Source: Streptomyces sp. NRRL F-2664
Lineage (GTDB): Bacteria; Actinomycetota; Actinomycetes; Streptomycetales; Streptomycetaceae
Direction of reading: 5' to 3'
Length of the DNA: 48,579 nt
Assembly (NCBI RefSeq): GCF_000719345.1
Contig: NZ_JOFX01000043.1
Location: forward strand, 1-48,579
Positions 1,332-37,439 of the stretch are shown in pieces (the stretch's first letter is position 1; each line of letters opens with the position of its first letter). The notes beneath the pieces were generated by a model. The model was not told the origin of the DNA. It saw only the letters and a list, made by a program, of their open reading frames with translations, and ran no database searches. The position numbers and the translations under genes are program-made.

Positions 1332-1480
1332 GCCGGGGATTTTGACCGCCTTCACAGGGCCCCCACAACTGTGCATGGCCACTTCTGAGGGGGTCCCGGC
1401 TCTGGCCGCGAGCCACCTGCGGCGCTTGCATGGCGGCGACTCACAGCAACACATCAGGCACTCATGGTGGAGGAGACCCC

Positions 1481-4336
1481 TTGCCCAAGTTCAGCGCAGG
1501 TTCGTCGGCTCGGACCCCGGCCGGACCACGGATATGGCGGAAAGAACTCCGGTCCGCCGGAGGAATCGCGGTTCTGCTGGCCGCCGCAATGACCTTGCAG
1601 GCGTCGCCGGCGTGGGCCGCGGACCCCGGTCCCTCGCATGTCCTCCCCGGCCAGGACACCGCGACCCCGGTGCTCGTCGAGGGGCTGCGGGAGTCCGTGG
1701 ACGCCGAGGCCGCCCCGGCCGACGCGGCCCGCGGGCACCTCGCGGCCCACAAGAGCCGCTACCGGATCCCGCGTGCGGGCACCGACCTCGTCCCCCTGTC
1801 GGCGACGACCGCCGGCGCCAAGGACGAGACGGTCCGGTTGCAGCAGAAGCACCGCGGGGTCGACGTCCTGGGCGGCCAGTACGTCGTCCGCATGCAGAAG
1901 CAGGACGGCAAGCGGGTCGTCACCGGCACCTCGGGGCACTACTTCACCGCCCTGGACACCGACGTCACCCCGCAGGTCGCCGAGGACGTGGCGGTCCGCC
2001 GCGCGGTGGCCGCCACGGCCCGCCGGCTGGCGGCGACCCTCGACAAGCGCCGGGCGCCGCAGTCGGAGTCGGCTGGTCCGGCCGCCACCGGCATCACCGG
2101 CGAGGCCAGGGGGCTCGTCGTCCTGCCCAAGGGAGGCGGCGTCCTCGCCCACCGCGTCACCGTGCGCGGCACCGCGCCCGGTACCGGTGCGCCGGTCGTG
2201 GACGAAGTGTACGTGGACGCCCGGTCGGGATACCCGGCGCTCCAGTACAGCGCGCTGAAGACGCTTGCGGCCCCGGCGGCAGCCGCGCGGACCGCCGGCG
2301 CGGCCGCGGACGGCCCGACGGCGGACGGGCCGCCGCCGGCTCCCGCGAACCTGGTCCCGGAAACCGGCTCCGGTGCCCGGCTGGGCGGCGCCGCGGCCCC
2401 CCTGGACATCGCCTACGACCCGGCGGCCGGGCACTACCTCCTCGCGGACCCGGGCCGGATGCGCGCCACGTCCAAGAGCCTGCTGTCCACGTGGGACGCC
2501 CGAGGCAAATCGGTGTCGGAGACGTCGGGGAGGTGGCCCTCCGGCATCACGATGTTCTCCTCCCCGACCACCGCCTTCGGCGGGGCGGCGACCGACTCGG
2601 GAGCCGTGGACGCCCACTGGAACGCCGGGCAGGTCTACGACTTCTACAAGAAGAACTTCGGCCGCGACAGCCTCGACGGGAGCGGCGGAGCCGTCAACTC
2701 CCTGGTCGGCGTGACGTATTACGGCCTCCCCTACGCCAACGCGTTCTGGGACGGCACCAAGATGGTGTACGGCAACGGCGACGACGAGTTCAAGCCGATG
2801 TCGGCCGACACGGACGTCGTCGGCCACGAGATGACCCACGGCGTCATCGAGCACACCGCGAACCTGGTCTACGCCGGCCAGTCCGGCGCCCTCAACGAGG
2901 CCCTCGCCGACTACTTCGGCAACGCGATCGACGTCACCGCGAGCGGGACGCCGATGGGCGACCCGGCCGCCGGCCTGATCGGCGAGGACCTGTGCCGCAC
3001 CAAGGCCGCCGCCGACTGCGCGCTGCGCGACCTCAACGACGGCGCCACCACCTCGAAGAGCTTCCTCGGCGTGTCCTTCGCCACCGACAACGGCGGCGTG
3101 CACCTGAACTCGACGATCTTCTCCGGCGCGCTGTGGGACATGCGCGAGGACCTGGGCGGTGAACTGGCCGACAGGATCGTCTACAAGGCGGTCACCGAGT
3201 ACATGACTCCCATCGACGGGTTCACCGAGGCCCGGGGCGCGGTGCTCGCCGCGGCCAAGGCGCTGGGCGCGTCCTCCGCGCAGCAGAACACCGTCAAGCG
3301 CTCCTTCAACGCCCACGGCATCGTCCCCGGCTGGGAGCAGGCCCTCGGGGTCGACAGCGACACCCTCTTCGGCACCCTGAACACCACGGACTCCGGGGTG
3401 GGCGCGGGCGGCGGCTGGTGGGCGGCCTCGAAGTCCAACGACGACGGCTCCGAGCCCTACTCGGTCTACGCCGGCCGGCTGGACGGCAGGGGTGCGCCGA
3501 AGGTGGTCAGCCCCAACGACGGCCGCTACCACACGGCCCCGGCGACGGACGGCAGCACCGTGGTGTGGACGGCGTACGGCCCGACCTCGGTCGACGTGCT
3601 CGCCCGGCCGGTGGCGGGCGGCCCGGTCAAGACGCTCCACAGCTCGGCGACCGGGGTCGCCGGTCTGCGGGTGGAGAAGGGTACGGTCGTGTTCGAGGAG
3701 TACGACGTCCTCGGCGGCCGGCACGTCGGCTACAAGCGGCCCGCGGACAAGGCGCCGGTCTTCACCGACGGGAAGAAGTGGAACACGCTCACCGCTCTGC
3801 CCTCCATCAGCGGCAACAGGATCGCCTACGCCAAGCTGTACCCGCAGGGCGGCACCTACCGGCTGGGTGTGGAGGTCGTCGACCTGGCCACCGGCACGGC
3901 GGTCATGACCGAGCAGCTCGACGAGCCGGTGAGCCTCGGCCAGACCGGAATCAACGGCAAGAACGTCTTCTGGCTGGCCGACAGCGACGAGAACGACGGC
4001 GGACTGGTATCGGTGGTCAGCTCCGGGCTGGACGGCCGCGGCGCCTTCCTCGTCAGCAGCGAACGCAAGCCGGGTGCCTTCATGGCCTCCGACCTGACGG
4101 TCTCCCAGGACGCGCTGACCCTGGTCGCCCGGACGCCCGACACGCGGTACCGCAACGAGTCGCTGCCGAAGCTGTGGCAGCTGACCACCGACGGCTCCCG
4201 CCGGGAGCGGGTGTCCTGCAACCGCGGTGAGCAGAGCCACCCGGCGGCCGGCGCGGGCCGCCAGGTCGCCTGGCTGGACGCGACGACCGGCTCCACCGAC
4301 CTGGTGGTCCGGGAGCGGCCGGCCGGTACCTGCTGA
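1481..4336 (+). CDS. Secreted M4-family (thermolysin-like) metalloprotease with C-terminal propeller-like region
   Basis: TTG at 1481 is preferred as the start because GGAGGAG lies just upstream and it places a clean Sec signal peptide at the N-terminus (RRxx-free basic start, then GGIAVLLAAAMTLQASPAWA). The 951-residue product has an FTP-type propeptide around residues 100-150, then the catalytic domain. The zinc motif HEMTH is at 449-453, the third ligand Glu is in GALNEALADYF (Glu473, exactly the thermolysin spacing), and the catalytic His is in HLNSTIFSG (His541). From about residue 620 the chain continues with repeated beta-type stretches (GRLDGRGAPKVVSPNDGRYH), like a partial TolB/beta-propeller domain, unusual for compact M4 enzymes. 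It acts outside the cell. The gene converges on the NRPS operon. Confidence 0.93.
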   Translation: MPKFSAGSSARTPAGPRIWRKELRSAGGIAVLLAAAMTLQASPAWAADPGPSHVLPGQDTATPVLVEGLRESVDAEAAPADAARGHLAAHKSRYRIPRAGTDLVPLSATTAGAKDETVRLQQKHRGVDVLGGQYVVRMQKQDGKRVVTGTSGHYFTALDTDVTPQVAEDVAVRRAVAATARRLAATLDKRRAPQSESAGPAATGITGEARGLVVLPKGGGVLAHRVTVRGTAPGTGAPVVDEVYVDARSGYPALQYSALKTLAAPAAAARTAGAAADGPTADGPPPAPANLVPETGSGARLGGAAAPLDIAYDPAAGHYLLADPGRMRATSKSLLSTWDARGKSVSETSGRWPSGITMFSSPTTAFGGAATDSGAVDAHWNAGQVYDFYKKNFGRDSLDGSGGAVNSLVGVTYYGLPYANAFWDGTKMVYGNGDDEFKPMSADTDVVGHEMTHGVIEHTANLVYAGQSGALNEALADYFGNAIDVTASGTPMGDPAAGLIGEDLCRTKAAADCALRDLNDGATTSKSFLGVSFATDNGGVHLNSTIFSGALWDMREDLGGELADRIVYKAVTEYMTPIDGFTEARGAVLAAAKALGASSAQQNTVKRSFNAHGIVPGWEQALGVDSDTLFGTLNTTDSGVGAGGGWWAASKSNDDGSEPYSVYAGRLDGRGAPKVVSPNDGRYHTAPATDGSTVVWTAYGPTSVDVLARPVAGGPVKTLHSSATGVAGLRVEKGTVVFEEYDVLGGRHVGYKRPADKAPVFTDGKKWNTLTALPSISGNRIAYAKLYPQGGTYRLGVEVVDLATGTAVMTEQLDEPVSLGQTGINGKNVFWLADSDENDGGLVSVVSSGLDGRGAFLVSSERKPGAFMASDLTVSQDALTLVARTPDTRYRNESLPKLWQLTTDGSRRERVSCNRGEQSHPAAGAGRQVAWLDATTGSTDLVVRERPAGTC

Positions 4337-4442: not shown

Positions 4443-7412
4443 TCAGCCGCCGGGCTGCGCCATGGTGGTGATCATCTCGGCCAGTACGGTGCGGCGGTCC
4501 TCGCCGGGCAGGGGCCGCAGGGCGCGGGCCAGCCGGGCGCTGTCGTAGTGCCAGCGGTGATCGAGGTCCCGCGGCACCGTGCCGGTCTCGCGGAGGTCGG
4601 CGCGGGCACCGAGCAGCTCCGTGAGGTCGAGGGCCAAGTCGTGCCAGGACACGTGCCCGCTGCAGGCGTTGGCGACCCCGTGCACGGGCCGGTCGAGGCA
4701 CTCGGCCACCGCACGGGCGAGTGCGGCCGCGTGCACCCAGGCGGCTCCGTACCAGTCGTGTCCGCCGGTCCCGGGTCGGGGCAGTTCGATCGGCCGGCCC
4801 TCTCGAGCGGCCTGGTAGAGCGTGCCGATGGCGCCCCAGCGCAGCTGTTCGCGCAGCCGGTCGTGCGCACCCCAGACGATCGGCGACCGTACGGCGCTGG
4901 CGCCGCCGCGGCCCCGGGTCCCGGCGGCGCGCAGCACCAGGGCCTCGCAGTCGAGCTTGGCCCGACCGTAGGGGCTGACGGGCCCGTGGGGCGCCGACTC
5001 CTCGGCGACCCGGTCGGCCGGCGGATGCCCGTAGGCGTCGACGCTGCTGACGAAGACGAACGGGCCGCGCCGCCAGGCGTCGACCATGGCCTCCATCGCC
5101 GCCAGGTCCACGTCGTGCCGGGTGAAGGTACAGGCGGCGTGGACGACCGCGTCCGCCCGGGCGACGGCGTCCCGCAGCCCGGCCAGGTCGGTGAGGTCCC
5201 CCTCGATCACGTCGACGCCGTCGGCAGCGACGAGGTGGGCGGACTCCGGCCGGGCCAGGGCCAGCACGGGGCGGCCCCGCGCGGCCAGTTCGCGCACGAC
5301 GAACGCGCCGACACCGCCCGTCGCGCCCGTGACGAGCACCGTGCCGGGACGGAGGTCCCGGGAGCGGGGGGCCGGCCTGGGCACGGCCTTCGCCGCGCTC
5401 TGCCGTGCCGCCCGTTCGTCCAGGAGCGCGGTCAGCGCCCGGGGGGTGCGGGCCTGGAGCACGTCGAGCCCGGTGAGAGGCAGCCCGAGCTCCGCGCGCA
5501 GCCGTTCGGCGAGTTGCACGGCCTTCAGGGAGTGGCCGCCGAGGGCGAAGAAGTCCTCGTCGGGCGACGGACGGGGGCCGAGCACGGCGGCGAAGGCCCC
5601 GGTGACCGCCTGGGCCCGGCCGCCGGCTGCCGGGTCCGGCGCAGGCGGCGCGGGCGGCTGCCCGGGCAGCCGGGCCCGGTCGGCCGGTCCGGCGGCGGTG
5701 CGCGGCAGTGCGTCGAGCAGGGTGACCGCGGCCGGTACGGCCTCGGGTGCCAGCGTTCGGCGCAGCATGCCCAGGAGTTCGTGGCCGGAGGGGCCGGCGC
5801 TGTCCTTCAGGACGGCGTACGCCACAGTGGGCCCCTGCTCGGGCCGGACCACTGCCGCGTCCGCGACCAGCGGGTGGGCGAGCAGGGCCCGAGCGGCCGG
5901 ATGGCTGTCGCGGTGGTCCGGGGAACCGTGGTCCTCGTGCGGAGGGGCATCGTCCGGCCGGGCCGCAGGCAGCCCGTCCAGGGCGAGTGCCGGGTCGTCC
6001 GCCACGGCGTGCAGCAGGGCCGCGTAGTCCCGGGCGGCCGCCTCCGCGACGCTGTTGTCCAGGGCGGTCGCGTCGTACTGGACGAGTGCCCGCGGCCGGG
6101 CCGGGTCGCCCAGGGCCAGGCCGTACGACAGGGTGAACTTCGCGCCGTCGGAGGGCACATCGACGTACTCGGCCGATGTGCCCGGCAGCCGGAGCACGGT
6201 CGGCTCGCCGAGGACGTCGGAGGTGACGCGGACCAGCCCGGTGCCGTCCGAGCCGCGGGCCCCGGCGCCGAGGCGTTCGAGGACGAGGTCGAAGGGGATG
6301 TGCCGGTGCTGCTGGGCTTCGAGGAGGGCCGCCCTCACCCGGCGCAGCAGTTCGGTGAAGGACGGGGCACCGGAGAGGTCCACCCGTACGGGCAAGGTGT
6401 TGACGCACAGGCCCACCAGGCCGCGCATGGCGCTTCCGCTGCGGTGGGTGCCCGCCACGCCGATGACGAGGTCGTCGTCGCCGGTGAGGCGGTGCAGCGC
6501 GGCGAAGGCCGCGGTGAGCGAGACCGTGAACAGCGTGGCCTGCCGCTCGGCGCCCAGCGTCCGCAGCGCCTCGGGCACCGTGGCCGCGAGGGGGACGGTA
6601 CGGACGGCCGCGGATCGCACGGCGGTGGGCGGCGCGGGCGCCGCGGGCTGCGGCAGGCGCGGCGGTACGGCGTCGGCCAGCCGCTCGCTCCAGCGGTCCA
6701 GTTCCTCGGCCACGGCGGGCAGGGCGTCGTGCTCGCGCCGGGCGTACTCGGCGTACTGCGGCGGCGGGGCGAGGGGGCTCCTGGATGTGCCTCCGGTGGC
6801 CGCCGCGTACAGGTCGGCGAGTTCCCCGGCGACGGTCTCCAGCGAGGCGCCGTCCACGGCGATGTGGTGGAACGTCAGCAGCAGCGTGTGGTCCTGCGGG
6901 CCGTGGCGCAGGACGAGCGCCCGTACGGCGTCGCCGGCCGCGAGGTCGAACGGCCGGGCCGCCTCGCGGCGCAGCAGCCCCGCTGCCTGCGCCTCGCCGG
7001 TGTCGACGACGTGCACGGGGACGGTCCGCGGGGTGGGCAGCACCTGCTGGCGGGGCTCTCCGCCGTGCTCGGTGTAGCGGGTGCGCAGGATGGCGTGCCG
7101 GGCCACCAGCGAGGTGAGGGCGGTGGCGAACGCGGCCACGTCGAACGGGCCGCGGAGCCGGGTGGCGAACGGGACGTGGTACGAGTCCCCGGCGCCGCCG
7201 AGCCGTTCCATCAGCCACATGCGGCGCTGGGCGCGGGAGAGGGGCACGTCCTCGGACTGCGGCGCGGGAGTGTCCCGGCCCGGGTCCCCGACCGCCGCCG
7301 GGGACCCGGTGGTCGGGGCGCGCCCGGCCGTGCCGGCGCGGGCCCGGCGCAGCAGTTCCCGTTGGAGTTGCTGTCGCTGCTCGTGGGGCGCGGAGTCGGC
7401 GTCAGTGGACAT
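4443..7412 (-). CDS. NRPS terminal protein: C - degenerate A subdomain - PCP - SDR-like release domain
   Basis: The 989-residue protein begins with a full condensation domain (about 58-480; HHIAVDG near 182-188). No adenylation core follows. Residues about 510-590 resemble only the small C-terminal A subdomain (LLAHPLVADAAVVRPEQG, then PRTAAGPADR). The A10 motif that normally reads GKVDR is GPADR, so the catalytic lysine is missing. A carrier domain with LGGHSL (Ser near 628) comes next. The last 300 residues form an NAD(P)-binding short-chain-dehydrogenase fold (VTGATGGVG near 693, EGDLTDL, FVSSVDAYG, YGRAK with Tyr near 815). It is shorter than classical thioester-reductase domains. The start overlaps the preceding NRPS gene by 11 bases. 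Reductive or other SDR-type release of the peptide is inferred; an in-trans supply of the last amino acid would be needed. Confidence 0.88.
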   Translation of the reverse strand: MSTDADSAPHEQRQQLQRELLRRARAGTAGRAPTTGSPAAVGDPGRDTPAPQSEDVPLSRAQRRMWLMERLGGAGDSYHVPFATRLRGPFDVAAFATALTSLVARHAILRTRYTEHGGEPRQQVLPTPRTVPVHVVDTGEAQAAGLLRREAARPFDLAAGDAVRALVLRHGPQDHTLLLTFHHIAVDGASLETVAGELADLYAAATGGTSRSPLAPPPQYAEYARREHDALPAVAEELDRWSERLADAVPPRLPQPAAPAPPTAVRSAAVRTVPLAATVPEALRTLGAERQATLFTVSLTAAFAALHRLTGDDDLVIGVAGTHRSGSAMRGLVGLCVNTLPVRVDLSGAPSFTELLRRVRAALLEAQQHRHIPFDLVLERLGAGARGSDGTGLVRVTSDVLGEPTVLRLPGTSAEYVDVPSDGAKFTLSYGLALGDPARPRALVQYDATALDNSVAEAAARDYAALLHAVADDPALALDGLPAARPDDAPPHEDHGSPDHRDSHPAARALLAHPLVADAAVVRPEQGPTVAYAVLKDSAGPSGHELLGMLRRTLAPEAVPAAVTLLDALPRTAAGPADRARLPGQPPAPPAPDPAAGGRAQAVTGAFAAVLGPRPSPDEDFFALGGHSLKAVQLAERLRAELGLPLTGLDVLQARTPRALTALLDERAARQSAAKAVPRPAPRSRDLRPGTVLVTGATGGVGAFVVRELAARGRPVLALARPESAHLVAADGVDVIEGDLTDLAGLRDAVARADAVVHAACTFTRHDVDLAAMEAMVDAWRRGPFVFVSSVDAYGHPPADRVAEESAPHGPVSPYGRAKLDCEALVLRAAGTRGRGGASAVRSPIVWGAHDRLREQLRWGAIGTLYQAAREGRPIELPRPGTGGHDWYGAAWVHAAALARAVAECLDRPVHGVANACSGHVSWHDLALDLTELLGARADLRETGTVPRDLDHRWHYDSARLARALRPLPGEDRRTVLAEMITTMAQPGG

Positions 7413-9261
7413 CGCTGGGCTCCGGGGTGTCGGGGTGGAGGTCCGCGTGAGCGGCGAGGAGGACGCGTTCGACCAGCGCGGCCTGTGCGGCGACGGTCGG
7501 GGCGGCGAAGAATTCGGCGAGGGTGATCTCGACGCCCAGTTCCTCGCGCAGGTCCTCGGTGACGACGAGGGCGAGCAGGGAGTGCCCGCCGATCAGGAGG
7601 AACTCGGCGTCCGCGTGCGGGACGTCGGTGCCCAGTGCCCGGGCCCACACGTCGGCGACGGCCTGTTCCAGCGGGGTCATCGGCGGCGCCGACCCTTCGG
7701 CGGACCGGCCGTCGGCGCCGTGTGCGCGGGCGGTGAGCGCCCGCCGGTCCACCTTGCCGGCCGGGGTGAGGGGGAGCCGCTCCAGCACGGTGACCGCGTC
7801 GGGCACGAGGTGGGCGGGCAGGAACGCCGCGAGCCGCTCGCGCAGCGCGGAGCCGGAAGGTACGGGTCCGGGCGCGGGCACGACGAAGGCGACGAGGCGG
7901 GCCTCGGGGGTGCCGGCGCCGTCCACGGTGACGGCCGCGTCGTCCACGTCCGGCTGCTCGCGCAGGGCGTGTTCGACCTCGGCAGGTTCGATGCGGAAAC
8001 CGCGGACCTTCACCTGGTCGTCGTTGCGGCCGTGGAACTGCAGGACGCCGTCGGGGCGGAGGGAGACGACGTCGCCCGTACGGTAGAGCCGCCCGCCGTC
8101 GGCGGCCGGGTGCTCCACGAACCGTTCGGCGGTGAGTTCGGGCAGGCCGGTGTACCCGTGGGCGAGCCTGCTGCCGCCGATCCACAGTTCGCCCCGGTCG
8201 CCGTCGGCCACCGGGCGGCCGTCGGCGTCCAGGACGTGCGCCGTGGCGCCGCAGACGGGCCGGCCGATCGGTACGGGCCCCGCGCAGTCCCGCGCCGTGA
8301 CCCGGTGGGCGGTGGCGAAGGTGGTGGTCTCGGTCGGCCCGTAGCCGTTGACGAGTTCCAGCCAGGGGAAGGCGGTGAGCACCTCGCGGGCCTGGGCGGC
8401 GCCCATCGCCTCGCCGCCCACGACGACCGAGCGGAGCTGGGCGAAGACGCGGGAGCGGCGCGCGGCGAGCTGGTGGAAGAGCGCGGTGGTGAAGAACGCC
8501 ACGGTCACGCCGTGCCGTTCGACGTGCCGGGCGAGGTCCTCCAGGGTGGGCCGCTGCTCGGTGCACACGACGACGGCGGCGCCGTTGGCGAGCGCTGCCC
8601 AGACTTCGAACGTCGAGGCGTCGAAGGTCATGGGCGAGTGGAACAGGACGCGGTCGCGTCCGGTGACGGTGCCGTAGTCGGGTGCCGTGACCAGCTCGGC
8701 GACGGCGCGGTGCGGCACCAGGACGCCCTTGGGGCGGCCCGTCGAGCCGGAGGTGAACATGATGAACGCCGCGCTGTCCGGGTCGGACTCGTCGAGGGGA
8801 CGGCCGTTGGTGAGCGGCTCCTCGGGCAGGGCGAGGACGGGGCCGGCGGGCGCGGCCGCGTCCAGCAGCTTCGCGTCGCCGACGGTGAGCGTCACCTCGG
8901 CGTCGGCGATCATCGCGTCGGTCCGCGGGCGCGGCTGGGCCGGATCGAGCGGTACGCACACGGCTCCGGCCAGCCACAGCCCGAGCTGCGCGACGACCGT
9001 ACGGGACGAGCGGGCCGTCAGCAGCGCGACGCGGTCGCCGCGGGTCACGCCGTGTGCGCGCAGGCGCGCCGCGAGGGCGTGGCCGGCCTGCAGGAGGCTG
9101 CCGTAGGTGAGGGTGGTGTCGCCGTCGACGACGGCGAGGGCGTCGGGGGTGAGGGCGGCGTGCCGCGCGACGAGGGCGGGCAGGGCGGTGCCGTGCGCCG
9201 GGTCGGCGGGCCGGGGACCAGTCGTCCGGAGATCGGCCGGCTGCGGGATGGTGGTCGTCAT
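7402..9261 (-). CDS. NRPS A-PCP protein (predicted aliphatic amino acid)
   Basis: The 619-residue protein has a complete adenylation domain: FTSGSTGRPKG (A3), NGYGPTETT (A5), GELWIGG, YRTGD (A7), GRNDDQVKVRGFRIE (A8) and PAGKVDR (A10). A carrier domain with IGGHSL follows. Reading the specificity pocket by eye against PheA numbering gives D-A-F-A-V-G-G-T-F-K. That is close to the known valine signature D-A-F-W-I-G-G-T-F-K, with a smaller residue at position 278, so a valine-like or larger hydrophobic residue is plausible. There is no condensation domain; the partner must be the C domain of a neighbouring protein. The start lies one base from the stop of the preceding NRPS gene, and the end overlaps the next gene. 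Confidence 0.9.
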   Translation of the reverse strand: MTTTIPQPADLRTTGPRPADPAHGTALPALVARHAALTPDALAVVDGDTTLTYGSLLQAGHALAARLRAHGVTRGDRVALLTARSSRTVVAQLGLWLAGAVCVPLDPAQPRPRTDAMIADAEVTLTVGDAKLLDAAAPAGPVLALPEEPLTNGRPLDESDPDSAAFIMFTSGSTGRPKGVLVPHRAVAELVTAPDYGTVTGRDRVLFHSPMTFDASTFEVWAALANGAAVVVCTEQRPTLEDLARHVERHGVTVAFFTTALFHQLAARRSRVFAQLRSVVVGGEAMGAAQAREVLTAFPWLELVNGYGPTETTTFATAHRVTARDCAGPVPIGRPVCGATAHVLDADGRPVADGDRGELWIGGSRLAHGYTGLPELTAERFVEHPAADGGRLYRTGDVVSLRPDGVLQFHGRNDDQVKVRGFRIEPAEVEHALREQPDVDDAAVTVDGAGTPEARLVAFVVPAPGPVPSGSALRERLAAFLPAHLVPDAVTVLERLPLTPAGKVDRRALTARAHGADGRSAEGSAPPMTPLEQAVADVWARALGTDVPHADAEFLLIGGHSLLALVVTEDLREELGVEITLAEFFAAPTVAAQAALVERVLLAAHADLHPDTPEPSDVH

Positions 9262-9262
9262 G

Positions 9263-11179
9263 TCAGGCTCCTTCCGGCTGCCGGGTCAGGCGCTCGTCGA
9301 CGAGGGCGGCGAAGGTGCGCAGGTCGGTGCTGCGCAGCAGTTCCGGGGCGCGCAGGCGGACTCCGGTCTCGCGTTCGACGGTCGCCAGCAGCCGGGCCGC
9401 GATGATCGAAGTTCCGCCGGCGTCGGTGAAGTTGTCCCCGAGACCGGTACCGGGCCGGCCGAGGAGGTCGCGTACGGTCGCCAGCACCAGCCGTTCGGTG
9501 GCGGTGGCGGCGGTTTCGTGCCCGTCGGGCCCGGAGTCGCTCCCGCGGTCAGTGCGCGGCGGACCGGACTCCGGGACGTCGGCCGCCAGGGCGGCCCGGT
9601 CCACCTTGCCGTTGGCGTCGAGCGGGAAGCCGTCGACGAGCCGTACGGTGCCGGGGACGGCCTGCTCCGGCAGCCAGCCGCGGACGGCTTCGAGGAGCTC
9701 CCCGGCGGTCGGTGCGGCGGCGTCGGCGGGCCGCACGTGGGCGACGAGGCGGCCGTGGCCGGAGCTGTCGCGCAGCACGGTGACGACGGCGGTGCGCACC
9801 CGCGGGTCCTGCTCGAAGGCGGCTTCCACTTCGGCGGGTTCGATGCGTACGCCGCTGATCTTCACCTGGTCGTCGAGGCGGCCGAGGAAGTCCATGCTGC
9901 CGTCCGGGTTCATCCGTACCCGGTCACCGGTGCGGTAGAGGCGGTCGACGGACGGCAGGGCCGGCTCCGTGGGCGGCGGGGTGAACCGGCGGGCGGTGAG
10001 TTCGGGGTCGAGGTAGCCGAGTGCCAGGCAGTGTCCGCCGACGCGCAGTTCACCGTCCTGGCCGCGCGGGACGGGGCGGCCGGCGTCGTCGGTGACCACG
10101 AGGGTGACGCCGGGCAGGGCGCTGCCGATGGGCGGCGGGGCAGGGTCGCCGGAGTCCGCGTCGGTGGCGCGCATGGTGTGGGTGGTGGTGACGACGGTGG
10201 CCTCGGCGGGCCCGTAGGCGTTGTGGACGGTGGCGGTGACGTCCGTGCCGGGGCGGCGGCGCATGCGGTCGCCGCCGACGACGAGGTGCCGCAGCTGCAG
10301 GTCCTGGGGCCAGGGCCGGTCCAGGAGGGGCTCGACGGTGGGAGTGGCCGCCACGGCGTGGGTCAGGGCGCAGTCGCGCCACCAGTCGGTGAGGACGTTC
10401 GAGTCCCACCGGGTGTCGTCCGGTGCCGGGACGAGGGCGGCTCCCGAGGTGAGGCCGGCCCACAGCTCCAGCAGGTGCGGGTCGAACGCGACGCCGATGA
10501 GCAGGGACTGGCGGTCGCCCGGTGCCAGGCCGGTCTCGGCCCGGTACCAGTCCAGGGCGACGGAGAGGGATGCCTCGGCGACGGCGACCGCCTTGGGGCG
10601 GCCGGTGGAACCGGAGGTGAGGACGGCGTACAGGGCGCCGTCGGGTGCGCGCCGGGTGCCGCGGGCGGTGTCGGTGAAGGCCGCCACGACCGTGGCCGGG
10701 GCGTTCACGCCGTCGGTGGGCAGGGGAACGGGAAGGTGCTCGCCGACGCGGTGCGCCGCGGGCAGGACACCGGGGTCGCCGATGAGGCAGGCGACGTCGA
10801 GGTCCTCGGTCACGGCCTGGGTGCGGCGTTCGCCGGGGCGGGGCCCCAGCGGCAGGTAGACGGCGCCCAGCCGGGCCAGCGCGACGGCGGTCACGACCAG
10901 GGCGGTGGAACGGTCGAGGCAGACACCGACCAGGTCGCCGGGGCGGACGCGCTCGCCCAGGGCGGCGGCGACCTGCTGGGCCGCCGCGTCGAGGTCCCGG
11001 AACGTGCGGACGTGGTCGCGGTCGATCACGGCGGGCGCCTGCGGGGTGCGCAGGACCCAGTCCTCGAAACGGGCCAGCACGCTGGTCGGTTCGGCGGCGG
11101 GGCCGTGGGCGACGCTCGGCAGGGTGTCGGCGTCGGGCGGCAGGGCGGGCATGACGGGGGCGGCCTGGGACAGGGTCAT
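9263..11179 (-). CDS. NRPS A-PCP protein (substrate unclear)
   Basis: ATG at 11179 shares one base with the TGA of the upstream gene (TGATG), indicating translational coupling. The 638-residue product carries an adenylation domain (LTSGSTGRPKA, NAYGPAEAT, GELRVGG, YRTGDRV, GRLDDQVKISGVRIEPAE, NGKVDR) and a carrier domain with DAGGTSI, in which the phosphopantetheine serine is kept although HS is replaced by TS. The pocket residues appear to be D-P-L-(P or T)-V-G-A-V-V-K. I do not recognise this signature, so no substrate is assigned. Like the next protein it has no condensation domain. Two consecutive A-PCP proteins without C domains are unusual for a linear assembly line. Confidence 0.9.
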   Translation of the reverse strand: MTLSQAAPVMPALPPDADTLPSVAHGPAAEPTSVLARFEDWVLRTPQAPAVIDRDHVRTFRDLDAAAQQVAAALGERVRPGDLVGVCLDRSTALVVTAVALARLGAVYLPLGPRPGERRTQAVTEDLDVACLIGDPGVLPAAHRVGEHLPVPLPTDGVNAPATVVAAFTDTARGTRRAPDGALYAVLTSGSTGRPKAVAVAEASLSVALDWYRAETGLAPGDRQSLLIGVAFDPHLLELWAGLTSGAALVPAPDDTRWDSNVLTDWWRDCALTHAVAATPTVEPLLDRPWPQDLQLRHLVVGGDRMRRRPGTDVTATVHNAYGPAEATVVTTTHTMRATDADSGDPAPPPIGSALPGVTLVVTDDAGRPVPRGQDGELRVGGHCLALGYLDPELTARRFTPPPTEPALPSVDRLYRTGDRVRMNPDGSMDFLGRLDDQVKISGVRIEPAEVEAAFEQDPRVRTAVVTVLRDSSGHGRLVAHVRPADAAAPTAGELLEAVRGWLPEQAVPGTVRLVDGFPLDANGKVDRAALAADVPESGPPRTDRGSDSGPDGHETAATATERLVLATVRDLLGRPGTGLGDNFTDAGGTSIIAARLLATVERETGVRLRAPELLRSTDLRTFAALVDERLTRQPEGA

Positions 11180-14100
11180 CACGACTCCGTGGAGAGGGCG
11201 GTGGGGTGGGCGGTCGCGGCGAGGGCTTCGGCCTGGTCGGCGAGGACGGGGTTGCGGAAGAGCACCCGCAGGGGCGGGCGGGTGCCCAGCCGGGGCTCCA
11301 GCCAGGCGGCCAGCTCGGCGGCCAGCAGGGAGTGGCCCCCGCTGTGGAAGAAGTGGGAACGGGCGTCGAACCGGCTGTGGCCGAGCACCTTGCTCCAGCC
11401 CTCGCGGAGCAGCGCCGTCATCGGGTCGTCGGGCGCGCCGGTGGCAGCGGGCCCGACCTCTTGGCTGGTTCCGGTTCCGGTTCCGGCAGTGCCGCCGCCG
11501 GAGCCGGTGTCGCCGGTGTCGCCGCCGGCCTCGGTGTCGAGTGCGGCCGCGCGGCGGGCCAGGGCCGTACGGTCGGGCTTGCCGCCCGCCAGGGTCGGCA
11601 TGGCGTCCAGTGAGGCCCACCGGGCGGGCACGAGCGGCCCGGGCAGGCGGTGGCCCAGCTCGGTGTGGAGCGCCTTCTCGTCGAAGTCGGCTCCGTCGGC
11701 GCCCTGTTCGAGGAAGCCGACGAGCCGGGGCCCTCCGGGGCCCTCCCGGTCGAGTACGACGGCGCAGGACCGGCCGCCCAGCACCGCGGACGCCGCGGCC
11801 TCGATCTCCTCCAGCTCGATGCGGTGGCCGCGCAGCTTGACCTGGTTGTCGCGCCGCCCCAGGAAGTACAGCAGGCCGTCCAGGCCGCGGTATCCGAGGT
11901 CGCCGGTGAGGTAGACCCGTTCTCCGCCGAGAGCGGCGGGGGTGACGAACCGGGCGGCGGTGACCTCTTCGTTGCCCGCGTAGCCCTGGGCGAGGCCGGG
12001 CCCGGCAATGGCGAGTTCGCCGACCGCGCCGGGGGGCAGCGGGCGGTGGTGGGCGTCGAGCACGTGGATCCGCTCGCCCGGGAGTTCGGTGCCCAGGGGG
12101 ATCTCGGCGCCCTCGGCGAGGGCGTCGCGGGCGATCTCGTGGACGGTCGAGCTGATCGCGGCCTCGGTGACGCCGTAGGCGTTGAGGACAGTGGCGTCGG
12201 TGTCGGCGAGGACGCCGCGCAGCGCCTGCGCCGGGAGGCGCTCCCCGCCGAGGACCAGGAGCCTGGGCGCCCAGCTGCCGTCGCGCAGGGCGGGACGCAG
12301 GTCCTCGCGGGTGGCGAGGAAGTAGCTGGTGGGCAGGTTGGCGACGGTGACCCGGGCGGAGGCCAGGAGCTCGGTGAGTTCCGCGCCCGTGGGCACCTCG
12401 TGCTCGGGCAGTACCAGGCACGCCCCGGCGTACAGGGTGGGCAGCACTTCCTCCAGTGCCACGTCGAAGGACGGCTGCGCGAACATCAGGACCCGGTCGG
12501 AGGTGATGAGGCCGAACCGGTCGGCGGTCGCCGTGATGTGGTGCACGAGGGCGCCGGGGCCCACGGCGACCGGCTTGGGCGTGCCGGTGGAGCCGGAGGT
12601 GTGGATGACGTACGCGGTGTCGGCGAGGACGGCGCCGTCACGGGCCGGGGGCAGTACGGGGGCGTCGATCCGGGCGGTCGGCAGGTCGCCCGGGAGGGCC
12701 GGGGTGGCGTCGCAGGTGAGGACGAGGGCCGGGGCGAGCCGCTCCAGCAGCAGGGCGAGCCGGGCCGGCGGATCGGACGGGGACAGCGGGGTGTGCACGG
12801 CGCCGGTCCGCAGACAGGCGAGCAGGGCGACGACGGAGTCCGTCCCCCGGGGCAGGACCGCCGCCACGGGCCGGCCCGGCGTCACTCCGGCGGCCTTCAG
12901 GCGCTCGGCGAGCGAGGCGACGCGCTCGTCGAGTTCGCCGTAGGTCAGCCGGCGGGCGCCGCACAACAGGGCGGGCAGCGAGGGGTCGTGGTGGCCCACG
13001 GGGTCCAGCGGATCACGGCCGGCCGGGACGGGTACGGGCTCGGCGGCCGGTTCCACCGCGGCCGGAGCGAGATCGGCCAGCGGCGACCCGGGGCTGTCGA
13101 GGTAGGCGCGCAGCAGGTCCAGGAAGCGGCCGGAGAGCAGCCGGGCGACGTCCTCGCCCAGCAGGTCGGCGTCGTAGTCCCAGACGAGCGTCATGCCGGG
13201 TGCGCCGTGGCGGGTGGTGACACCGCGCCGGTCGTCCGGGAGGAGCACCACGTCGAGGTCGAAGCGGGTGGTGCCGGTGTTGAAGCCCTCGAAGAGGGTG
13301 ATGTCCAGACCGGGTACGTCCATCTCGGGCAGCGGCGCGTCGTGGGCGCTGAACATGACGGAGAAGAGCGGGTTGTCGGCACCGGAGGTGTGCATGCCGA
13401 GGGCCCGGGTCAGCTCCTGGACGGGTACGTCCTGGTGCGGCAGGGCGCGGATGAGGGTGTCGGTGACCTCGTCCATGGTGTCCTGGGCGGGCAGGGCGGC
13501 GTCCAGGGCGAGCGGCAGCGGGATGGTGTTGACGAACATGCCCACGGCGTCCTCGTAGCCGAGGGGGCGGTTGCCGACAGCGGTGCCGATGACCATGCGG
13601 GAGCGGCCGCTGTGGCGGCGCAGGAGCTCCGCGAAGAGGCCGAGGAGCGTGGAGAAGGGCGTCAGGCCGCGGGTGCGGGCGTGTGTGCGCAGGCGTTCGG
13701 CGAGGTCGGCGCCGATGGTCTGGCGCAGCTGTCCGCCGTGGTGCTTGCGCCGGGCGCCCGGGCGGGTCACGCCGGGCAGCGGCATGTCGTGCTGGAGGTC
13801 GCGCAGTTCGGTGCGCCAGAAGTCGAGCGATGCGGGGGCGTACCCGGCCTCGGCCCGCTCCCGGACGTGGTCGGCGTAGGAGGATGCGGGCGACAGCTCC
13901 AGGGGCTCGCCGAGGACGTGGGCGCGGTAGACGCGGAAGACGTCGTCGAGCAGGATCGCGAAGGAGTGGCCGTCGTGGATGAGGTGGTGCTCGACGTGGA
14001 CCAGCCGGTGGTGGTGCTCGGCCAGCCGGACGAGCGTCCAGCGGATCAGCGGCGCCTCGAAGGTGTCGAGCGGTGTCTCGGCCTCGGTGCGCAGGAGGCC

Positions 14101-14385
14101 GGCGAACGCCGCCTCGGGGTCGTCCGCCGTGCTGAGGTCGACGGTGTGCAGCCGCGGTGTGCAGTGCTCGGCGACCTGCTGCTCCGGTACGGAGCCGGTG
14201 GTGGCGACGAGGTGCAGGCGCAGGCCGGGATGGCGCGCCAGGGTGGCGGCGAGTCCGCGGTGGAGGGCCTCGGGGTCGAGCGTGCCCCACAGGTCGAGTG
14301 AGGCGGTGAAGTTGTAGGCGCGACTGCCGGGCTGCATCTGCTCGTGCAGCCAGACGATCTCCTGCGAGGAGGAGAGGGGGAGCAT
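11179..14385 (-). CDS. NRPS C-A-PCP module (predicted basic amino acid)
   Basis: The 1068-residue protein has a condensation domain (SSSQEIVWLHEQ at the start; active site HHLIHDG). Its adenylation domain carries IHTSGSTGTPKP, NAYGVTEAA with Val in place of the usual Pro, GELAIAG, YLTGD, GRRDNQVKLRGHRIE and GGKPDR. A Gly/Thr-rich linker leads to a carrier domain (HSGGHSL). The pocket reads D-V-E-S-V-G-A-I-S-K. The Glu at position 239 and overall similarity to the known Lys signature D-A-E-S-I-G-S-V-C-K suggest a lysine- or ornithine-like basic substrate. The start ATG at 14385 follows CAGGGA. It is the first gene of the tightly coupled four-gene NRPS block; 487 bases separate it from the free C protein upstream. 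Confidence 0.9.
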   Translation of the reverse strand: MLPLSSSQEIVWLHEQMQPGSRAYNFTASLDLWGTLDPEALHRGLAATLARHPGLRLHLVATTGSVPEQQVAEHCTPRLHTVDLSTADDPEAAFAGLLRTEAETPLDTFEAPLIRWTLVRLAEHHHRLVHVEHHLIHDGHSFAILLDDVFRVYRAHVLGEPLELSPASSYADHVRERAEAGYAPASLDFWRTELRDLQHDMPLPGVTRPGARRKHHGGQLRQTIGADLAERLRTHARTRGLTPFSTLLGLFAELLRRHSGRSRMVIGTAVGNRPLGYEDAVGMFVNTIPLPLALDAALPAQDTMDEVTDTLIRALPHQDVPVQELTRALGMHTSGADNPLFSVMFSAHDAPLPEMDVPGLDITLFEGFNTGTTRFDLDVVLLPDDRRGVTTRHGAPGMTLVWDYDADLLGEDVARLLSGRFLDLLRAYLDSPGSPLADLAPAAVEPAAEPVPVPAGRDPLDPVGHHDPSLPALLCGARRLTYGELDERVASLAERLKAAGVTPGRPVAAVLPRGTDSVVALLACLRTGAVHTPLSPSDPPARLALLLERLAPALVLTCDATPALPGDLPTARIDAPVLPPARDGAVLADTAYVIHTSGSTGTPKPVAVGPGALVHHITATADRFGLITSDRVLMFAQPSFDVALEEVLPTLYAGACLVLPEHEVPTGAELTELLASARVTVANLPTSYFLATREDLRPALRDGSWAPRLLVLGGERLPAQALRGVLADTDATVLNAYGVTEAAISSTVHEIARDALAEGAEIPLGTELPGERIHVLDAHHRPLPPGAVGELAIAGPGLAQGYAGNEEVTAARFVTPAALGGERVYLTGDLGYRGLDGLLYFLGRRDNQVKLRGHRIELEEIEAAASAVLGGRSCAVVLDREGPGGPRLVGFLEQGADGADFDEKALHTELGHRLPGPLVPARWASLDAMPTLAGGKPDRTALARRAAALDTEAGGDTGDTGSGGGTAGTGTGTSQEVGPAATGAPDDPMTALLREGWSKVLGHSRFDARSHFFHSGGHSLLAAELAAWLEPRLGTRPPLRVLFRNPVLADQAEALAATAHPTALSTES

Positions 14386-14872: not shown

Positions 14873-16189
14873 CTACGTCGCGGGCAGCCCCCGGGGGCGC
14901 AGCGCGTGGGTGAGGGCGGCGAAGGCCCGGTGCGCCGTCTCGTCGTCGAGGACGGCGCGGTCCCACACCATCCGCAGGCGGAGCTCCGCCCCCTGGGTGA
15001 CGGAGACGGCGAAGGGGCCGCGGACGGGTCTGCCGTCGACGTGTACCTCCCGTCCCTCGACACCGGCCAGGACCAGGGGCGGTCGACGGCTGTCGTCGTC
15101 CACGGTCAGGAGTCCGTCGAGGCCGCCGCTCCAGCCCCCTCCGGCGGCTCGGGCCGCGGTCACGACCGCGTCGAACGGTACGTCGGCCCGGTCCAGGTCG
15201 TCCCACCAGGCGTCGGCCGTCGCCTCGGAGCCGGGGCCGCGGCCGGTGTCGGCGGGGAAGACGAGGGTGTTGAGGAAGCAGCCGACGACGGGCTCCGCCT
15301 CCGCGGGTCGGCCGCCCCAGGGGTAGCCGAGTGGAACCGCCCGGTCCGGGCCGTACAGCTCCCGGGCTGCGGAGCGGCAGGCGTCGAGCAGTTCGGGGAA
15401 GGAGACGCCGCCGTCGTGGGCGGGCAGCCGGGCCTGCGCCGCGCCGGTGGGGTGTGCACCGTGGGGCAACCGCGCCGGAAGGGGTGCCGGAGCGTGCGTG
15501 TGCACCGAGCGCAGTCGCTGGGCCCAGTAGGCGGCCGCCTCGGGTGTCTCCGCTCGTTCCTCGGCGGCGAGTTGGCGCAGGACGGCGTCCCGGTAGGCGG
15601 CGAGTTCGGCGGTCGTCTCCGCCGCTGCCGCGTGGGGGTCGGTGGCGTCCTCTCCGTAGGCGGCTCCGAGTTCGTCGACGATCCGTGCCAGCGATCGGCC
15701 GTCGCAGACGGCGTGGTCCAGGGCGACGGCGAGGACGTCCTCGTCGCGCTGCACGTCAGGGACGAGGAAGAGGCGCATCGGCGGACCCTGCGGCTCCCAG
15801 GCCGCCAGCGCGCGTCGGAGCGTGTCGGCGGGCTGTTCGCCCGGGGTGGGGGCGGGCCGGGTCAACGTGGCGTCGGGAGTGTCCGGGTCGTTCGGGGCGC
15901 CGGGGTCGGGGACGCGCAGGAGGGGGGTGCCCCGCACGATCTCGGGCCGCGAACGCAGCGCGGTGTGCCGGGCTGCGAGCCGGTGGGCCGCTGACCGCAG
16001 GCGTTCGGGGTCGATGGTGCCGGACGGGAACGCGAAGAACATGGGGACCACGTCGGGGCGACCGGACGGGTCCAGGGAACGCACCAGCATGAAGCGGCGC
16101 TGGGCTCCGGTGACGGGCAGCAGGGTGTCGGGGTGGTCGGCGGCGAGCCGCCGGTGGCGGGACAGGTACTGGCTGGTGATGCTGAGCAC
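14873..16189 (-). CDS. Free-standing condensation-domain protein
   Basis: GTG at 16189 is supported by GAGGA seven bases upstream. The 438-residue product is a single condensation-type fold: LPVTGAQRRFMLVRSLDP near the N-terminus, the active-site motif DHAVCDG, and a late motif YPWGGRPAEAEPVVGCFLNT that matches the family's GR..E...VG.FvNT signature. The first His of HHxxxDG is Asp, but the second, catalytic His is kept. It could acylate the first residue, join units between the C-less A-PCP proteins, or act in release. It sits 69 bases after the MFS exporter gene on the same strand and is probably co-transcribed with it. Confidence 0.85.
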   Translation of the reverse strand: MLSITSQYLSRHRRLAADHPDTLLPVTGAQRRFMLVRSLDPSGRPDVVPMFFAFPSGTIDPERLRSAAHRLAARHTALRSRPEIVRGTPLLRVPDPGAPNDPDTPDATLTRPAPTPGEQPADTLRRALAAWEPQGPPMRLFLVPDVQRDEDVLAVALDHAVCDGRSLARIVDELGAAYGEDATDPHAAAAETTAELAAYRDAVLRQLAAEERAETPEAAAYWAQRLRSVHTHAPAPLPARLPHGAHPTGAAQARLPAHDGGVSFPELLDACRSAARELYGPDRAVPLGYPWGGRPAEAEPVVGCFLNTLVFPADTGRGPGSEATADAWWDDLDRADVPFDAVVTAARAAGGGWSGGLDGLLTVDDDSRRPPLVLAGVEGREVHVDGRPVRGPFAVSVTQGAELRLRMVWDRAVLDDETAHRAFAALTHALRPRGLPAT

Positions 16190-16258: not shown

Positions 16259-17650
16259 TCAGCGGGTGGATGCGGGGGCCGGGCTTTCGCCGTCGTCGGC
16301 GCGGGCCGTGGCCTGCGCGGTGCGGTCGGTGCCGTCGGTGCCGGGGGTGCCGTCCGTGGCGCCCGCACCGTCCGGGCCGCCGCCCTCCTGTGGACCGGGC
16401 AGGTCCCGCATCCGGCGCAGCGGGGAGAGGAGCAGCGGCAGGGGTACGGCGATGATGCCGGCGGCGCACCAGGCGAGCGCCGCGCGTGACCCGTAGGTCT
16501 GGGCGAGGGCTCCGCCGATGAGCGCGCCGAGCGGCAGGGTGCCCCACATCAGGAAGCGCAGGGTGGCGTTCATCCGGCCCAGCAGGCGGGGCGGGCACAT
16601 CGACTGGCGGAAGCTGACCTGCGCGACGTTGTAGACGACGGCGCCGAAGGAGACGACCGCGGATCCGGTGGCGAAGAGGACCGCCCCGGTGAGGCCGTGC
16701 CCGGACAGGGGCCAGGCCAGTGCGAAGGGGCCGGTGACCAGGAGGGACAGGAGGATGACCCGTGCCTGCCCCAGCCGGGCGGCGAGGCGGCCCGCGCAGA
16801 GTGCGCCGAGGAGGCCGCCGACGGCCGACGCGGACAGCACCAGCCCGAGCCCGCCGGCCCCCAGGCCGACGGTGCGGACGAGGTGCACGGTCTGGGTGGC
16901 CATCAGGACGGCCGTGCAGAGGTTGGCGAGGCCGGTGGTGAGGGCGATGACGCGGAGCAGCGGATGGCCGAAGACGAAGCGGACGCCCTCGCCGATCTCC
17001 TTGCGGAGCGAGGTTCCGGCCGCGGCGGGCCCGGGTGCCTCCTCGGTCCGCCCGACACGTTGCAGGAACAGCGCGGAGAGCAGGTAGCCGACGGCGTCGA
17101 CGACGACCGCGAACTGCGCGCCGACGAGCTGGACGAGCCCGCCGCCGATGCCGGGCCCGGTGACGTGGGCGGTGGAACGGACCGTCTCCAGTGCGCCGTT
17201 GCCCGCGACGAGCTGGTCGCGGGGCAGGATCTGCGGCAGGTAGCTCTGGTGCGCGACGTCGAAGAACACGGTGGCCACACCGGTGACGAGGGCGACGGCG
17301 TAGAGCTGGACCATGGTCAGGACGTCGGCGAGGGCGGCCGCGGGAATGCTCGCCATGGCGGCGGCGCGCACCAGGTCCGCGCGGATCATCAGGGGCCGCT
17401 TGCGCAAGCGGTCGGTGAGTGCGCCGGCGGGCAGCCCGACGAGCAGGAAGGCGGCGGTCTCCGCGGCGGTGAGCAGCCCCACCTGGAAGGCGGGGGCGTC
17501 GAGTTCGAGGACGGCCACCAGGGGCAGCGCCACCAGAGTCACCTGGGCGCCGAACTGTCCGGTGGCGGCTCCCGCGAGCAGCAGTCGGAAGTCACGCAAG
17601 CGCAGGGGGCCACCGGTGCCACCGGGAGCGGCGCGGTTTGTGTCGGACAT
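16259..17650 (-). CDS. MFS exporter of the NRPS cluster
   Basis: The 463-residue protein has about twelve hydrophobic segments and the MFS loop motif AGALTDRLRKRPLMI after the second. It resembles the EntS/MFS_3-type exporters that often accompany siderophore or peptide clusters. ATG at 17650 is chosen because GGTGA lies about eleven bases upstream; GTG at 17665 is an alternative. The C-terminal 50 residues are a Gly/Thr/Asp-rich cytoplasmic tail. As the first gene of the leftward operon it most likely exports the NRPS product and may give self-resistance. A short inverted repeat (GTGAA-5-TTCAC, 17651-17665) overlaps the start region. Confidence 0.88.
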   Translation of the reverse strand: MSDTNRAAPGGTGGPLRLRDFRLLLAGAATGQFGAQVTLVALPLVAVLELDAPAFQVGLLTAAETAAFLLVGLPAGALTDRLRKRPLMIRADLVRAAAMASIPAAALADVLTMVQLYAVALVTGVATVFFDVAHQSYLPQILPRDQLVAGNGALETVRSTAHVTGPGIGGGLVQLVGAQFAVVVDAVGYLLSALFLQRVGRTEEAPGPAAAGTSLRKEIGEGVRFVFGHPLLRVIALTTGLANLCTAVLMATQTVHLVRTVGLGAGGLGLVLSASAVGGLLGALCAGRLAARLGQARVILLSLLVTGPFALAWPLSGHGLTGAVLFATGSAVVSFGAVVYNVAQVSFRQSMCPPRLLGRMNATLRFLMWGTLPLGALIGGALAQTYGSRAALAWCAAGIIAVPLPLLLSPLRRMRDLPGPQEGGGPDGAGATDGTPGTDGTDRTAQATARADDGESPAPASTR

Positions 17651-17665
17651 GTGAACGACATTCAC

Positions 17666-18247: not shown

Positions 18248-19414
18248 GTGCCCCACACCACCCCCTTACGGGCCGCCGTCGCCGCCCTGCTCCTGACCGT
18301 CGGCCTGGGCGCCGCCCACACCGGCGCGGCGAGTGCCGTCCCGCTCGCGGAACCCGCCGCGGCATCGTCCGCCCCAGCGCCGTCCGCCTCGGCCGGACTG
18401 CTCGACGCGATGCGCCGGGACCTCGGGCTCACCGCTTCCCAGGCCGAGGAACGGCTGAGCGCAGAAAAGGCCGCCGCGGCCCTGGAGAAGACCGCACGGC
18501 AGGCCGCGGGTGGTGCATACGGCGGCTCCTGGTACGAGCCGTCCACCGGCCGGCTCGTCGTCGCGGTGACCGACCGCGCGGAGGAGTCCGCGGTGCGGGC
18601 ACTGGGCGCCGACACCCGCCTCGTCCGGCACAGCGCCGCCGCGCTGGACCGCGCCAAAGCCCGCCTGGACACCCTGGGCGCACCCCCCGGGGTGGCCGGT
18701 TGGCACGTCGACCCGCGGACCAACAGCGTCGTCGTCACAGTCGTACGTACCGAGCAGGAAGCCCCCGCCGTACGGGCGTTCGTCGAGCGGGCCCGGGCCG
18801 GCGGCCCCGTCACCGTCGCCGAGACGGCGCAGGCGCCCCGTACGTACGCAGCGGGCACGGTCGGCGGCGACCCGTACTACACCGGCAACGTGCGCTGTTC
18901 GATCGGCTTCTCCGTGCACGGCGGCTTCGTGACGGCCGGGCACTGCGGACAGGCGGGGGCCGCCGTGCGCGGCTGGGACGGGTCCGCGATGGGCACCTTC
19001 CGGGGATCCTCGTTCCCCGGCGACGACTACGCGTACGTCGGCATCCACAGCGGCTGGTGGACCGTACCGGTGGTGCTCGGCTGGGGCACCATCCCCGACC
19101 AGCTGGTACGCGGCTCCGCCGAGGCACCCGTGGGCGCCTCGATCTGCCGGTCGGGGTCCACGACGCACTGGCACTGCGGCACCGTCCTCGCCAAGAACGA
19201 GACCGTCAACTACAGCCAGGGCGCCGTCCACCAGATGACGAAGACCAGCGTCTGCGCCCAGGGAGGCGACTCCGGCGGCTCGTTCCTCAGCGGGGACCAG
19301 GCCCAGGGCGTCACCTCCGGCGGCTGGGGCAACTGCTCGTCCGGCGGCCAGACGTGGTTTCAGCCGATCAACGAGATCCTCGGCCGCTACGGCCTGACGC
19401 TGCACACCGCCTGA
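18248..19414 (+). CDS. Secreted streptogrisin-like (S1 family) serine protease
   Basis: GTG at 18248 follows CAGGAGGTCTC. The 388-residue product has a Sec signal peptide (about 1-30), a long propeptide of the alpha-lytic/streptogrisin type (SGLLDAMRRDLGLTASQAEE at its start) and a mature domain beginning near TVGGDPYYTGN. The catalytic triad is visible: His232 in TAGHC, Asp260 in GDDYAYV and Ser342 in GGDSGGS. Paired cysteines match streptogrisins. Codon 7 is TTA (18266-18268), so synthesis probably depends on bldA. The protease is autoprocessed after export in this family. It is followed by a hairpin and then by a beta-glucanase gene, suggesting a set of extracellular hydrolases. Confidence 0.95.
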   Translation: MPHTTPLRAAVAALLLTVGLGAAHTGAASAVPLAEPAAASSAPAPSASAGLLDAMRRDLGLTASQAEERLSAEKAAAALEKTARQAAGGAYGGSWYEPSTGRLVVAVTDRAEESAVRALGADTRLVRHSAAALDRAKARLDTLGAPPGVAGWHVDPRTNSVVVTVVRTEQEAPAVRAFVERARAGGPVTVAETAQAPRTYAAGTVGGDPYYTGNVRCSIGFSVHGGFVTAGHCGQAGAAVRGWDGSAMGTFRGSSFPGDDYAYVGIHSGWWTVPVVLGWGTIPDQLVRGSAEAPVGASICRSGSTTHWHCGTVLAKNETVNYSQGAVHQMTKTSVCAQGGDSGGSFLSGDQAQGVTSGGWGNCSSGGQTWFQPINEILGRYGLTLHTA

Positions 19415-37359: not shown

Positions 37360-37439
37360 CCGGGCATGCTCCCAGACCGCCCGAGCACCCGCACTCGCGT
37401 TTTCGAACACCTGGGTCGCGGCCCGACGCCGACGCCCGT

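Follow-up and report, generated by a model that had tools for sequence, protein, structure and literature searches.

Peptide aldehydes are protease inhibitors of antiviral interest, and the closest described system to the one studied here is the omicsynin (omn) cluster of Streptomyces sp. 1647. According to the accessible text of its report, this cluster comprises five nonribosomal peptide synthetase (NRPS) genes with three adenylation (A) domains and is a homologue of those for deimino-antipain and chymostatin; the reductase (R) domain of its terminal protein, OmnF, is a short extended short-chain dehydrogenase/reductase (SDR) of ~300 residues, distinct from known R domains, and in-frame deletion with complementation identified it as the source of the C-terminal aldehyde (Li et al. 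2026, PMC12783407). Here we analyze a stretch of 48,579 nucleotides from Streptomyces sp. NRRL F-2664 (the window), in which a minus-strand set of NRPS genes ends in a gene for a 989-amino-acid protein with the order condensation (C) domain, A-domain remnant, peptidyl carrier protein (PCP) domain and SDR. Very probably, this terminal protein forms the final module of a synthetase for antipain/MAPI-type ureido tetrapeptide aldehydes, loaded in trans and releasing its product as an aldehyde through the SDR domain; as such it would be a compact natural case of both processes.

Measured against the published description of the omn cluster rather than by direct sequence alignment, the window is alike in its five discrete NRPS genes, three A domains and terminal short extended-SDR R domain, and omnF, amplified as a 2847-bp fragment, is similar in size to the 2970-bp window gene; omnR, omnG and omnC, the last encoding an Arg cyclase, are additional genes of the omn cluster (partial text of PMC12783407). 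The window has no match to the putative cyclase of its relatives. Chymostatins were assigned to such a cluster in S. rimosus (PMC9045324), and antipain and MAPI have putative identifications in Streptomyces sp. LN699, whose cluster was matched to the MIBiG antipain entry (PMC11212599), as far as the available text of these papers goes. The window carries the hallmarks of the antipain/chymostatin/omicsynin clusters, namely an EHHXXHDG ureido-forming C domain (EHHLIHDG in the C-A-PCP protein), a terminal PCP followed by a ~300-residue extended SDR (TGxxGxxG, S, YxxxKxxxE), and orthology to clusters of reported producers. The last is seen in the LN699 terminal protein (P0097), which shares 77% identity with the window protein across 84% of the query (its deposited sequence stops inside the SDR), and in synteny with loci L042, from a strain of S. 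rimosus with the same gene order and a 53% identical terminal protein, and L027. The latter belongs to Streptomyces noursei B-3066, which we take to be a producer of deimino-antipain/antipain and whose anp cluster was reportedly described by Maxson et al. in 2016; it shares with the window the same five genes and order (61-73% identity), the identical code in the protein corresponding to 9263-11179 and the A remnant, but differs at two positions of the Arg-type A code (DVENVGAVT, against DVENVGAIS in the window).

The architecture and the aldehyde release step are already in print, and the window system belongs to this known type and is no new enzyme class; added here are the lack of room for an A core in 71 scored relatives, the remnant-free state of 15 of 73 loci, the selection on the remnant, and the scores and fold of the SDR domain.

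Anatomy and conservation of the terminal protein

The anatomy, conservation, signature motifs and orthology of the terminal protein are established in this analysis. An earlier note, made from the letters of the window, had proposed the order C, a piece of the small A subdomain, PCP and an extended SDR of about 300 residues, and the Pfam matches agree: Condensation matches residues 53-381 with 221.5 bits, AMP-binding_C residues 509-575 (profile positions 5-75 of 76) with 37.8 bits, above its cut-off of 24.5, PP-binding residues 602-664 with 50.2 bits, and Epimerase (PF01370) residues 692-912 with 75.6 bits. The AMP-binding core PF00501 has no match in the protein up to E = 10, and the catalytic lysine of the A10 region is gone because this region reads LPRTAAGPADR, so the note was right that GKVDR had become GPADR; both features of a functional A domain, the AMP-binding core and the A10 lysine, are thus missing. 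The reading frame is intact, and the gene stands last in its set, after those for a major facilitator superfamily (MFS) transporter, a stand-alone C domain, a C-A-PCP protein and two A-PCP proteins.

Conservation was surveyed at two levels. Among proteins, 7996 candidates sharing most words were scored and gave 804 homologues; in the best 120 of these, the window's own protein among them, Condensation, PP-binding and Epimerase domains are present in 120 of 120 and AMP-binding_C, by eye, in 106, and all the named homologues are Streptomyces. Among loci, the best 80 of 143 genome-scan relatives correspond to 73 loci, some of which are truncated at contig ends; 67 keep the order and strand of the five NRPS genes (the full order is not seen in L012, L016, L043, L063, L072 and L073), and upstream of these genes 63 of the 67 have a match, whole or partial, to the MFS transporter. 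The glycine-rich motif and YxxxK that the note had seen in the end domain (TGATGGVG, residues 695-702; Y815xxxK819xxxE823) are invariant across the alignment of 74 sequences (the 73 loci and the window), as are S789/S790, R721 after beta-2 of the SDR domain, and PCP Ser628. Versions of the terminal protein with PCP and SDR, without C domain or A remnant, occur in Streptomyces shenzhenensis (L073, 9734-11206, placed before the other NRPS genes) and as P0144, P0145, P0147 and P0148.

The adenylation-domain remnant

Hidden Markov model (HMM) slices of the family alignment place the A remnant in 56 of the 73 loci, at 74.5 to 132.2 bits; it is absent from 15 (L058-L072), where the PCP follows the C domain after just 21-56 residues, and two (L056, L073), with no C domain in frame, were left out of the scoring. 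Where the remnant is present, the 97-163 residues between C and PCP are too few for an A core, because the PF00501 and TIGR01733 models span 384 and 409 positions, and none of the 71 scorable loci has space for one. With the core absent and no space for it, the carrier needs loading in trans, as had been claimed. The absence of the remnant from other relatives means that such a terminal protein can work without it. On the tree, the distribution requires two changes, only one of which is forced by strongly supported branches; the tree has long branches (L072, L073, P0150), and the remnant may have been either lost or gained.

Ratios of nonsynonymous to synonymous substitution rates (dN/dS; Nei-Gojobori), calculated between the window and 12 selected loci of the 73, are 0.24-0.67 for the remnant, 0.30-0.54 for C, 0.15-0.51 for PCP and 0.13-0.28 for SDR. 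The remnant lies below 1 in all 12 comparisons, below C in six, above C in six and above SDR in 12, while the linker before it (9-17 codons) gives 0.43-1.89 in the 10 of 12 comparisons where the ratio is defined. Judged by these ratios, the remnant is under purifying selection where it is kept, its constraint being about that of the C domain and weaker than that of the SDR; this speaks against simple decay. It can be called vestigial, as it was in the earlier note, in that only the small subdomain is left, but it is not simply decaying. Nor do these data favor the loss of the A core through a frameshift, an assembly error or recent pseudogenisation: with five-gene order kept in 67 loci and the remnant in 56, the architecture is no artefact, and an intact frame, the constrained remnant and C directly before PCP in 15 loci speak the same way. 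We found no evidence supporting such an origin, reject it on the comparative data and give it practically no chance.

By BLASTP the remnant is closest to the cluster's two A-PCP proteins (40-41% identity over 62-76 residues); identity to the C-A-PCP protein is lower (34%, gapped). It is conceivable, if rather doubtful, that the remnant is a working, catalytically dead A_C module that would dock the trans-acting A domain or hold the PCP, replacing cis loading, with a sister group that manages without it. Conservation in one part of the family and absence in another make this a mildly interesting question, and a docking role would be simple to test. Text on the remnant was not found in the accessible parts of the literature searched; Maxson 2016, the 2022 omicsynin paper and Cui 2021 may discuss it.

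The SDR end domain and the predicted release step

The end domain is an extended SDR by its TGxxGxxG and YxxxKxxxE motifs and its Rossmann fold (AlphaFold2 model, fold search, alignment). The earlier note had named HMM searches and structure prediction as checks and had held that the domain is shorter than classical thioester reductases; at ~300 residues it is, and it scores below the R-domain models. AMP-binding_C and Epimerase match the protein; NAD_binding_4 reaches 13.7 bits, under its cut-off of 20.1, and the TIGR01746 thioester-reductase model 27.4 bits against 213.35 (best stretch, residues 7-40); a match to MxaA R is confined to residues 7-30 (E 0.0043). A standard thioester reductase by sequence model was therefore rejected. 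Classical NRPS/PKS (polyketide synthase) thioester reductases (TIGR01746, MxaA R) resemble the window domain in being NAD(P)H-dependent extended SDRs, terminal after a PCP, with aldehyde release, NAD(P)H dependence and aldehyde release being predictions for the window domain; they differ in being longer and in having sequence models whose cut-offs lie far above the scores of the window domain.

The model, built from a 71-sequence alignment, has a pLDDT of 96 (single-sequence prediction gave 47) and ends in one helix, 289-301. In fold rankings based on it, UDP-sugar epimerases come top and cinnamoyl-CoA reductase (5tqm, 4r1s) is close behind, at 19-20% identity and as a plant enzyme with a free CoA substrate; the absence of standard R domains among the best 50 fold matches listed excludes nothing. 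For OmnF, an AlphaFold3 model is described as architecturally similar to MxaA R (root-mean-square deviation 3.053 Å over 302 residues) and the C-terminal helix-turn-helix substrate element as absent (partial text of PMC12783407).

The top-ranked sugar epimerases, together with best NCBIfam matches to HpnA- and OleD-type SDRs (all far under their own cut-offs, as the thioester-reductase models are under theirs), could be taken to mean that the domain instead tailors the carrier-bound peptide, in the manner of an epimerase or ketoreductase, and that release is by hydrolysis or another enzyme. This is very unlikely: deletion of the homologous OmnF domain changed aldehydes to acids, according to the accessible text (PMC12783407). 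The matches listed for the five NRPS proteins include no thioesterase, and cinnamoyl-CoA reductase is itself a compact extended SDR able to reduce thioesters. A four-electron reduction with a peptide alcohol as main product would accord with the alcohols of the omicsynin A series and with reduced antipain and MAPI reported from such strains (PMC12783407, PMC11212599). We rate it as extremely unlikely, since the OmnF study, in its available text, states that chymostatin aldehyde was not further reduced in vitro (data not shown there) and its authors suspect a reductase encoded outside the cluster (PMC12783407).

Among the outcomes left open in the earlier note (an aldehyde, an alcohol or an altered terminus), the aldehyde is the best reading, carried over from the deletion of the OmnF homologue (partial text of PMC12783407). 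The release step, which was called possibly unusual there, has been published for the divergent short R domain of OmnF, and the SDR domain occurs at E <= 1e-60 in 39 of 200 sampled Streptomycetaceae genomes, the own genome included. The domain may prefer NADPH, given its invariant R721. Stand-alone SDRs with 37-38% identity to the release domain, P0150 (Scytonema sp. UIC 10036), P0152 and P0153, may be discrete peptide reductases.

Neighboring genes and the predicted product

On the examples so far, EHHXXHDG seems necessary and sufficient for ureido formation (Yu and van der Donk, PMC11212132, accessible text). The motif is retained in 70 of 71 scored sequences, the window included; the sole exception, L072, has a 32% match to the C-A-PCP protein that is not counted as an orthologue. 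We take the substrate code DPLVVGAVV to be aromatic, DVENVGAIS basic and DAFFVGGTF Val/Ile. The five discrete NRPS proteins hold four carriers, three A domains and three C domains and therefore fit Phe-CO-Arg-Val-X-al, where X is Phe or Arg and one residue type is used twice; because one type serves two positions, the last module would need no A domain of its own. The predicted product is accordingly Phe-CO-Arg-Val-phenylalaninal or -argininal (MAPI/antipain), its last residue loaded in trans.

An acyl-CoA-dehydrogenase-like gene, presumably an Arg cyclase for capreomycidine, adjoins the C-A-PCP gene in 22 of the 73 loci (between L036 and L073), among them L042 and 13 of the 15 remnant-free loci, and its presence requires one change on the tree with L016, L043, L063 and L072 uncounted; our literature search found no paper tying it to Arg cyclisation. 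The window shows no match to it at E <= 1e-5, and the own genome's best match to the L059 copy is 40% identical (the L073 copy is 67-71% identical to the other 21). With the putative cyclase missing, the window cluster should use plain Arg, and a capreomycidine-containing product was rejected.

We infer the exact residues, the order of the middle steps and the trans donor as follows. Phe would be loaded by the aromatic-type A-PCP protein (9263-11179); the C-A-PCP protein would load Arg and link it to Phe via urea; Val from the other A-PCP protein (7402-9261) would be added by the stand-alone C domain; and the terminal C domain would add the last residue, placed on the terminal PCP by the aromatic-type or Arg-type A domain, so that three A domains would serve four carriers. 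The SDR domain would then free the peptide aldehyde by one two-electron reduction of the thioester with NAD(P)H. The earlier note's donor, one of the two C-less A-PCP proteins (both exist), would hold for phenylalaninal, with the aromatic-type protein; for argininal, the donor would be the C-A-PCP protein, through its Arg-type A domain.

Several points weigh against this assignment. The modeled fold rankings put epimerases first, and the direct enzymology of the OmnF release step is weak, with SNAC (N-acetylcysteamine) substrates giving only trace aldehyde in vitro (data not shown there; partial text of PMC12783407). Close homologues of the terminal protein occur in S. nojiriensis and S. yangpuensis, whose clusters are reported, in the sources as available, as just 66% similar to deimino-antipain (antiSMASH). 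The codes were read manually, with GrsA numbering.

Table 1. Positions of the terminal protein, its domains and the neighboring genes in the window
Feature	Position	Strand	Remarks
Terminal NRPS protein, C-(A remnant)-PCP-SDR reductase	4443..7412	minus (7412 down to 4443)	989 aa, 2970 bp
Condensation domain	5952..7256	minus	residues 53-487; motif FHHIAVDG
Small A subdomain remnant	5658..5900	minus	residues 505-585; GPADR in place of GKVDR
PCP	5409..5621	minus	residues 598-668; Ser628 of GGHSL at 5529-5531
Extended SDR (predicted reductive release) domain	4458..5348	minus	residues 689-985; TGATGGVG, SS, YxxxKxxxE
A-PCP protein	7402..9261	minus	code DAFFVGGTF (Val/Ile-like); predicted position 3
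A-PCP protein	9263..11179	minus	aromatic, Phe-like code DPLVVGAVV; predicted for position 1 and a candidate trans donor for position 4
C-A-PCP protein	11179..14385	minus	basic, Arg-like code DVENVGAIS, predicted for position 2; ureido-forming signature EHHLIHDG in the C domain
Stand-alone condensation domain	14873..16189	minus	motif DHAVCDG
MFS transporter	16259..17665	minus	

Elsewhere in the window, PADLOC gave no match; an open reading frame of 1374 residues (21007-25131, minus) has a coding-like GC content at third codon positions (0.91) and no Pfam or NCBIfam match, and another (35173-37410, minus) resembles the MXAN_6230/SCO0854 RING-domain family at 352 bits, under the cut-off of 600. 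The protease-inhibitor cluster is flanked by genes for an M4 thermolysin-like peptidase (1430-4336, plus) and a streptogrisin-like secreted protease (18248-19414, plus) with an alpha-lytic prodomain and a GGDSGG motif; locus L001 also has an M4 peptidase homologue (92%) close to its cluster, as do L063, L064 and L066 (58-59%).
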